Below the pieces are notes generated by a model. The model made no database searches and was not told where the DNA came from. It saw only the letters and a program-made list of their open reading frames with translations. Positions 55,321 through 57,201 of a stretch of 64,000 nucleotides of DNA are shown here, piece by piece (position 1 is the stretch's first letter; every line of letters starts with the position of its first letter). The translations under genes and the position numbers were made by a program. Source of the DNA: Clostridia bacterium (lineage in GTDB: Bacteria > Bacillota > DSM-521 > Neomoorellales > Neomoorellaceae); NCBI GenBank assembly GCA_030445865.1, contig JASUSV010000002.1:1-64000 (forward strand), read 5' to 3'.

Positions 55321-55518
55321 ATGGAAATAAGTATCAACAATAAAATATATAAAGCTAAAGATAATTCTACGGTCATGGATATATTAAATGATTTGGGGTT
55401 TTCCCGACAGGTGGCCGTTTGGGTCAATGAGTATAAGTTGCTGCAAAAGGAATACCCTACCTATAGACTGCAACCCGGAGATAAGCTTAAGATTATTAAA
55501 CCTTTGGTGGGAGGATAG
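55321..55518 (+). CDS. MoaD/ThiS-like sulfur carrier protein
   Basis: A 65-aa ubiquitin-fold protein ending in Gly-Gly, the sulfur-accepting tail of MoaD and ThiS. Sequence features: NSTVMDILNDLG, VAVWVNEYKLLQ and LQPGDKLKIIKPLVGG. Its place behind an AOR gene favours a role in pterin-cofactor synthesis over thiamine. GGGGGG precedes the ATG. Confidence 0.88.
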   Translation: MEISINNKIYKAKDNSTVMDILNDLGFSRQVAVWVNEYKLLQKEYPTYRLQPGDKLKIIKPLVGG

Positions 55519-55563
55519 AAGCTAATTCTCCCCCAAGTTTTTACAAAAACCCCGCCAGAATGC

Positions 55564-55884
55564 CCCGGTTTCAACCGGGGTATGGATGGCGGCTATCAAT
55601 TGGTTATGGTATAATATGTGAGAGGTTCTTACCCCGGATGTTCCGGGTATAATCTTGAAAACGCGATAGTTCGGGAGGTTGCAGCAGCGAATCTTCTGCT
55701 GCGTAAAACTATTAGGAGTATCGCAACTATGCCAGCAGGGTATATCCCTGCTGGAGAGGGGAGCGTGGCACCCCTAAAGGCCAAGGTGATGATCTGGGTC
55801 ATCCGGGGAATGCTGGCTAACCTGCGGCTTAAAGCCGCCGTCCCGCGACGGGATGTCCCCCAATTTATTGGGGGGAGGATGTCA
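55564..55884 (+). ncRNA. Structured RNA region resembling an orphan HEARO/omega-RNA
   Basis: This 366-bp gap has no gene but about ten strong helices. Upstream CCCCGGTT/AACCGGGG. After an extended -10 TGGTATAAT (55607-55615) and GTGA (55618-55621) come CCCGGA/TCCGGG (55633-55647), GCAGCAG/CTGCTGC (55681-55702), overlapping pairs ATAGTT/AACTAT, GCGATA/TATCGC and GTTGC/GCAAC that suggest pseudoknots, CCAGCAGGG/CCCTGCTGG (55732-55754), AGGGG/CCCCT, GATGA/TCATC, GCGGCT/AGCCGC, TCCCG/CGGGA and CCCCCAAT/ATTGGGGG (55857-55874). Size, density and the preceding GTGA recall HEARO; no IscB/IsrB gene is nearby. A standalone sRNA is the alternative. Confidence 0.5.
55607..55615 (+). promoter_or_regulatory. 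Extended -10 promoter before the structured RNA
   Basis: TGGTATAAT is a perfect extended -10. Its start site would fall near 55622, the first base of the helix-rich region, so the RNA could be made from its own promoter without an upstream guide. Confidence 0.6.
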
Positions 55885-57201
55885 CTACCTGTATAAAAGT
55901 ATATCCTTGAGGCGGTCTTGCAGGTAGAGATGGGTGAAATTTTGCTTTGGGGTTTGTTCAAAGATTTTGTACCCTTCTTCATAACAGCGGGAACAGCTCG
56001 AGCGCGGGATGAAGACGGCCAGGATGTGCTCGCCTTGATCGGTGCAAGAATCGATCCAGCTCAACCCGGCACAGGCATCGCAGATTAGGGTGGTTTCGGT
56101 CTGAGTTTCTAAAAGCCCCTCCGTATCGTAATAGATGCGGCGATGGCGCTGAACCTTTTCCTGGCCTGAACGAAGTTTGGCGGCGATTTCTTCACGGTTG
56201 CGCCAGGCGTTTAAAGCTTGCCGGCAGAGATCGGCGATATATTGGGTTATTTCAGCCGGTTGAGATACTTTGGCGGGGGCATAATCGGGCTCCCGGACGT
56301 AGCTGTAATCGAGCCCGGCCATAGCCAGGATGATGCCCACGTTGGTGTAGGGGAGGGCGCCCTCGATGGAATAGCCCCCCTCCAGCACGGCGATATCCGG
56401 TTTGAGGCGGTCGTTGAGCTTGGCGTACCCGGGCGCCGAAAAGCGCATGTTGGTGATGGGGTCGGTGTAGTGGTTGTCCTGCCCGGCGGAATTGATTATC
56501 AGGTCGGGCTTAAATTCTTCTAAAACGGGCAGGATAAAGTTGTCCAGGGCGTAAAGGAATCCGTCTTCACCCGTACCCGGCGGCAGCGGCAAATTGAGGT
56601 TATAGCCCAGGGCGTTGGGGCCCCCGAATTCATGTAAGAAACCGCTTCCGGGGTAAAGGGTGCGGCCGTCCTGGTGTATGGAGATATAAAGGGTGTCTTT
56701 ATCGTGCCAGTATATATCCTGGGTGCCGTCGCCATGGTGGCAGTCGGTATCTACGATGGCTACGCGCTTGGGCCCGTATTGCTGGCGAATGTATTCCAGC
56801 ATGATGGCTTCGATATTAATATTGCAGAAACCGCGGGCGCCGTGGACGATGCGGAAGGCGTGGTGCCCCGGCGGCCGCACGAGGGCAAAGGCCCGGTCAA
56901 CCTCCCCTTTTATGACGGCTTCGGCGGCTACCATAGCCCCGCCGGCGGCAATTAAGTGGGATTCTGTCGTCCTGGACTTTACATCGGGTACACAGACGTG
57001 GACTCGCTCCACGTCCCTGGTGGTGGCCAGGCGGGGGCGGTATTCAATAATCCCTTCTATATCAAGCAGCCCTTCTTCGATTACCTGGTCCTGGGTATAG
57101 AGCAGCCTTTCCTCACGTTCGGGGTGGGTGGGGGAGATGGCCCAGTCGAAAGCGGGGAAAAATACCAATCCAAGTCGATTTTGGGCTTTAAGCACAGGCA
57201 A
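55885..57201 (-). CDS. HDAC-family deacetylase with C-terminal cysteine-rich domain
   Basis: Zinc-dependent deacetylase of the histone deacetylase/acetylpolyamine amidohydrolase family, 438 aa. Catalytic residues are visible in RPPGHHAFR (about 109), DTDCHHGDGTQ (about 152, metal Asp and His) and GQDNHYTDPI (about 250). Residues 1-345 are the deacetylase; about 375-415 carry two CxxC-type pairs (CDAC, SSCSRC) like a zinc ribbon, unusual for AcuC. Start is TTG behind GGGAGG. Likely target is an acetylated protein such as acetyl-CoA synthetase, or a small acetylated amine. Confidence 0.88.
   Translation of the reverse strand: MPVLKAQNRLGLVFFPAFDWAISPTHPEREERLLYTQDQVIEEGLLDIEGIIEYRPRLATTRDVERVHVCVPDVKSRTTESHLIAAGGAMVAAEAVIKGEVDRAFALVRPPGHHAFRIVHGARGFCNINIEAIMLEYIRQQYGPKRVAIVDTDCHHGDGTQDIYWHDKDTLYISIHQDGRTLYPGSGFLHEFGGPNALGYNLNLPLPPGTGEDGFLYALDNFILPVLEEFKPDLIINSAGQDNHYTDPITNMRFSAPGYAKLNDRLKPDIAVLEGGYSIEGALPYTNVGIILAMAGLDYSYVREPDYAPAKVSQPAEITQYIADLCRQALNAWRNREEIAAKLRSGQEKVQRHRRIYYDTEGLLETQTETTLICDACAGLSWIDSCTDQGEHILAVFIPRSSCSRCYEEGYKIFEQTPKQNFTHLYLQDRLKDILLYR

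Follow-up and report, generated by a model that had tools for sequence, protein, structure and literature searches.

Boundaries and fold of the element

What occupies the gap between two genes at positions 55519-55884 of the window, that is, the whole 64-kb stretch of DNA that was analysed? The gap is bordered by a ThiS/MoaD-like open reading frame (ORF; 65 aa, ending at 55518) and by a convergent ORF with its stop codon ending at 55885, and only low-quality ORFs are observed within it. An earlier note had placed a structured RNA in this gene-free gap, and the fold agrees with this: for 55540-55900, the + strand has a folding energy of -161 kcal/mol (z -5.5), a value equalled by none of the shuffled sequences. 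The - strand is also well folded (z -4.6), as palindromes would lead one to expect.

The span first given for the element, 55564-55884, proved close. Comparison with other copies, the flanks of which are unrelated, sets the ends at 55545 and 55885, which defines a complete non-autonomous IS200/IS605-family element of 341 bp on the + strand, as are its parts described below. The five left ends found in this genome all read TTTAC followed by AAAAACCCCGCC, with unrelated flanks. The right ends here and in relatives read GGATGTCAC, with GTCAC terminal and, again, unrelated flanks. The left ~55 bp and the right ~110 bp of the element are also found apart from each other. TTTAC (55540-55544) adjoins the element on the left, is present at 5/5 left ends of this genome and in one other locus (L066), and is the presumed target and TAM in view of its position. 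As in PATE and MITE derivatives, TTTAC and GTCAC, which are common to independent copies, correspond to the conserved cleavage-site sequences of an autonomous family, and neither a transposase nor tnpB is contained in the element. Since both ends are shared with tnpB-bearing copies, either in the same genome or in relatives, 55545-55885 is, judging from this homology, an IS200/IS605-family element lacking tnpB.

A TnpB guide-RNA scaffold in the 3′ part

The 3′ 160 nt of the element, from about 55732 to 55885, is homologous to the sequence that lies 3′ of tnpB in relatives, the best of which show ~86-91% identity. Like an omegaRNA, it terminates at the right end, where it closes with the right-end hairpin and GTCAC. 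This right end recurs in relatives ~1.1 kb after a TnpB start (MQTVTLKIKLL...), and in the copy that was read whole it directly follows a 372-aa TnpB. On these grounds, the 3′ part of the element is assigned as the omegaRNA/reRNA scaffold of a TnpB family. The orphan omega-RNA suggested in the earlier note is thus borne out at the sequence level, with a scaffold resembling the region 3′ of tnpB and no tnpB present.

The scaffold consensus, derived from ten sequences, consists of hairpins and of a closing helix formed by GUGGCACC and the terminal GGAUGUCAC; most of these pairs are invariant, which limits the support from covariation. The arms of the first hairpin are unlike those of the tnpB-linked copies, yet nine base pairs are retained, which therefore represents a compensatory replacement. 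By analogy with ISDra2 TnpB, the reRNA of which derives its last ~16 nt from the flank (PMC8612924), the flank at 55886-55905 (TACCTGTATAAAAGTATATC) is the predicted guide. It had been expected that transcription starting at the element would leave no guide. This does not apply in this orientation, because the guide of TnpB is the 3′ flank, and a transcript starting within the element would still include it.

No Rfam family was matched in the 64-kb window at gathering thresholds, and at relaxed E-values the only listings were at chance level, apart from a sub-threshold match of HgcC to the scaffold (55786-55898; 24.9 bits, gathering 50). HgcC is archaeal and may itself be a TnpB guide RNA.

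Left end and promoter box

The left-end palindrome (CCGCCA..CCCCGGTT/AACCGGGG..TGGCGG) spans 55552-55592, within the left end common to copies that adjoin a TnpB start. As pointed out before, an extended -10 box is placed to start the element: TGGTATAAT, a perfect match, lies at 55607-55615, with a predicted start at ~55622. A second TATAAT (55648-55653) directly precedes the conserved domain described below; it reads TAGAAT in the second copy of this genome. An exact TATAAT is observed at most 60 nt upstream of this domain in 39 of 69 loci, compared with 9 of 138 control windows further upstream.

Between promoter and domain, the window exhibits an extra segment, ACCCCGGATGTTCCGGGTA (55632-55650), which closely matches the scaffold hairpin ATCCGGGTCATCCGGGGAAT in inverted orientation. 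It includes a 9-nt perfect complement (CCCCGGATG near 55632 and CATCCGGGG in the scaffold), the strands of which are candidate pseudoknot partners only. The segment is confined to the two copies of this genome and could be an internal antisense or a repair product.

A conserved 5′ RNA domain at the position of tnpB

The middle ~140 nt, from the left end to the scaffold, has no match to tnpB elements. At the position where tnpB would stand, a 5′ RNA domain (55664-55714) is found instead. It consists of two helices, P2 (55665-55671/55707-55713) and P3 (55680-55687/55696-55703), with conserved GGUU and GUAAAA loop strands; the residues GUU preceding P3 and GUAAAA following it are strongly conserved and near-invariant.

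BLAST with the middle segment gave matches in the same genome only when 121 relatives were searched, and the first, weak homologues in two genomes when 398 genomes of the phylum were searched. Other short matches in the latter search were unrelated sequence and were dropped after inspection or as chance-level. R1, a covariance model derived from five sequences, was positive in 12 of the 398 genomes, including this one, and revealed multi-copy relatives; two hits (L100 and L102) were dropped, as they resemble coding sequence. A further model, R2, was applied to two classes and was positive in 14 of 113 genomes of one and 15 of 59 of the other; five of these positive genomes had been counted before. 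Altogether, 96 matches were obtained in ~36 genomes of the same bacterial phylum; 70 loci were collected and screened, most of them inspected in sequence, and the remaining matches are based on model score. R2 matches the window at 54.9 bits (E 3.6e-12), a score to be read with the window sequence being a training row and the E-values of the model being rough. An exact-pattern scan of genome contigs gave four matches, one of which was inspected in sequence and none of which was accepted as a homologue, and exact-pattern scans of viral contigs gave none. Plasmids exhibited no match to the element of the window or of genome G265, and only ~35-base matches to that of G331.

Among 41 distinct sequences, P2 and P3 are 91.5% paired and show strong covariation, with 169 double-change cells compared with 10-26 in slid controls, in an alignment that was fitted to the same structure, which favours it, and in which related copies are non-independent, although the groups differ from one another in their helix sequences. 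For an outer helix, P1, found in only some of the copies, 11 of 2000 permutations were equally strong. A pseudoknot joining the GGxUU strand to the P3 loop was considered and rejected: many copies, but not all, have the complement, and the loops would be almost of zero length, so that such a fold is sterically improbable. Three loci (L183, L184 and L192) form a subgroup in which the P3 loop is larger by ~17 nt. In Rfam 15, no credible family covers the 5′ domain in the window, the region or the related elements, chance-level listings apart. The domain is a candidate new RNA family, and the new structured RNA with its own promoter foreseen in the earlier note is borne out at the sequence level.

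The main alternative for the domain is a regulatory switch, an attenuator or riboswitch-like element that sets the output of guide RNA. The near-invariant loop residues are consistent with this, as is an alternative helix, GGxUU/AAxCC, which is possible in many copies and would compete with P3. In contrast, the group with a GUCAA loop exhibits no competing helix, and no shared terminator is seen directly after the domain. We consider a switch unlikely.

The same domain before different scaffolds

No tnpB was detected at E≤1e-5 within up to 1.5 kb on each side of the 70 domain loci, using 22 query ORFs from tnpB loci. Conversely, 45 loci, mostly from the tnpB side, lack the domain, although not all of them reach the left end. 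Most inspected copies exhibit the same order: a left-end-type palindrome, a TATAAT-like box, the 5′ domain and an omegaRNA-like tail that ends in TCAC or a similar right end. Many of the related tails are termed omegaRNA-like from their ending and position alone. Where a tail can be traced, its source is a tnpB element of the same genome. The G265 copy resembles the tnpB element of its genome with 95% identity in the tail and 76% in the left end; the tails of G187 and G310 are 97% and 88% identical to the tnpB element of their own genome; for G127, the values are 76% in the tail and 84% in the left end. The G331 type, with 12 copies, has a tail with a sub-threshold match (E 3.9e-8) to Rfam sot0042, a known archaeal IS200/IS605 omegaRNA family (PMC12558985). 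The TnpBs compared between the traced families, with G265 outside the comparison, share at most ~30% identity. Because the tails trace to different tnpB families, the same 5′ domain precedes unrelated scaffolds.

Some copies deviate from this order. In L152, L162 and L164, the scaffold is broken by an insert (CCCAGCACTCAACACCCATC...GGGTGTTGAGTGCTGGG), apparently a mobile palindrome that sits in the element. In L103 (1501-1551), no recognisable scaffold follows the domain; this copy may be truncated, or it may hint that the domain is able to exist by itself, and domain and scaffold therefore need not always occur together. One element copy (L097, 63-391) is located directly upstream of a purine riboswitch (RF00167, 78.5 bits).

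Copies and cognate genes in the same genome

A search of this genome for further copies, as had been advised, returned one, diverged and nearly full-length (87% identity; L002, G000:C76:10613-10949). Its right-end terminus is missing after TTTATTGACGAG and its -10 box is disrupted by a 5-nt insertion; the 5′ domain is retained and the copy appears decayed. From the loss of the right end and of the box it follows that single copies decay. The left-end copies of this genome run into the TnpB start (MQTVTLKIKLL...) at contig ends, as expected of a collapsed repeat. No complete cognate tnpB is present in the assembly of this genome. Two Y1 transposase matches were found, neither of them with matching ends nearby, and no TnpA with matching ends was identified. 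A second tnpB family of the genome (L011 and L012, both 1501-1617) is likewise broken at contig ends and exhibits a long structured tail with an AT-rich repeat at the right end.

The element might be a dead relic, a deletion derivative that is mobile in trans via its DNA ends only and the RNA of which is an unexpressed leftover. The left-end and right-end hairpins would suffice for TnpA, and the second copy has lost its right end and promoter box. Nevertheless, DNA ends do not require two RNA helices to covary over 41 sequences, nor are a compensatory replacement in the scaffold hairpin and an enriched upstream -10 box needed for their function. We consider a relic improbable.

The HEARO identity put forward in the earlier note is not retained. 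On this view, the - strand would encode an orphan guide RNA of IscB/IsrB that carries its guide at the 5′ end, which would fit a strongly structured RNA and a - strand that starts with GTGA. No match to RF02033 was obtained, however, at the gathering threshold in the 64-kb window, nor at E≤5 in the region or E≤0.001 genome-wide, the last being weak alone since control genomes likewise gave none. The homologous autonomous elements carry tnpB rather than iscB or isrB, and both the 5′ domain and the promoter box have + strand orientation. As for GTGA, taken as a HEARO junction, one is the complement of the terminal TCAC (55882-55885) of the IS200/IS605 right end and another (55618-55621) lies between the -10 box and the predicted start. 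We regard HEARO as very improbable. Equally so is a shrunken IStron, a group I intron fused to IS605-type ends: IStrons likewise combine IS605-type ends with structured RNA in the 5′ part (PMC4227781), but no group I intron core is matched in the region or in related elements and only ~145 nt would be free for it.

Proposed mechanism

We conclude, with a probability of about 0.8, that this is a non-autonomous IS200/IS605 element of the PATE/MITE type, which has kept the ends and the TnpB scaffold and in which a short conserved RNA domain replaces tnpB. The element ends, the homology to tnpB elements, the absence of tnpB, the recurrence and covariation of the domain, and the TATAAT box can all be read from the DNA itself; the steps proposed below go further. 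TnpB obtains its guide RNA from its own mRNA, which it trims at the 5′ side (PMC10278001). An element without the gene cannot depend on a translated tnpB message. On the simplest reading, which the anatomy suggests, the left-end promoter would transcribe the 5′ domain, the scaffold and the flank in one RNA, the 5′ part of which TnpB supplied from elsewhere, alone or with host RNases, could trim. TnpA acting in trans would excise the element, and TnpB guided by the flank would then cleave the donor site left empty (TTTAC + TACCTG...), which would preserve the element.

The most speculative part concerns the 5′ domain itself, which, from its position close to the start of the predicted transcript and its conserved loop residues, might stabilise the untranslated RNA or present it to a partner. 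Protection against decay from the 5′ end, or recruitment of a conserved partner, is a tentative proposal to which we give somewhat less than even odds. The conservation of the loop residues GUU and GUAAAA favours a specific partner over a plain hairpin. A further reading, more doubtful still, is that the domain is a module that makes independent mobile guide genes out of the guide RNAs of various TnpB families by binding one conserved partner, either a host protein or a surface of TnpB, with unrelated TnpB nucleases being used in trans.

Comparison with known systems

HEARO (RF02033) is also the guide RNA of a mobile element, but it is not matched here, serves another nuclease and has its guide at the 5′ end. 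RAGATH-18, the reRNA of IS607 TnpB, was likewise first known as a structured RNA; 64% of its copies adjoin tnpB, so a third do not (PMC11061315). It is, however, the scaffold of an IS607 TnpB rather than a 5′ domain, and it has no Rfam match here. The sotRNAs RF02656 and RF02657 are IS200/IS605 omegaRNAs (PMC12558985), and RF02656 has a sub-threshold match to the tail of the G331 relatives. In contrast to the present element, sotRNAs overlap tnpB and lack the 5′ domain, and the window is unmatched by either family. The omegaRNAs or reRNAs of ISDra2 and Ama TnpB share with the element a scaffold that ends at the right end and a guide provided by the 3′ flank (PMC8612924). Known TnpB omegaRNAs, in contrast, come from the 3′ end of the tnpB mRNA and are trimmed by TnpB (PMC10278001), whereas no tnpB lies upstream here.

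The closest likeness in element type is with the PATE and MITE derivatives of IS200/IS605, which are ends-only elements moved in trans. In a PATE-like copy of Halanaerobium, 28 nt remain of the left end and 58 nt from the 3′ terminus of tnpB, together with the complete right end of 160 nt; the report on these elements nowhere mentions RNA (PMC7290912). The present element differs from them in that tnpB has given way to a conserved RNA domain that follows a promoter box. In the open-access literature, tnpB-less guide elements are represented by PATE reports, with no such RNA domain, and an earlier description is possible; a 2023 paper on TnpB guide RNAs reportedly discusses PATEs. What is new would thus be the 5′ domain, as judged against Rfam 15 and this literature, rather than tnpB-less elements in general. 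TnpB guide RNAs are known mainly as parts of the tnpB transcript. If the proposed reading is true, TnpB has guide-only parasites that make up a common and structured form of these transposons, and a defined 50-nt motif enables gene-less guide elements to be found and tested.
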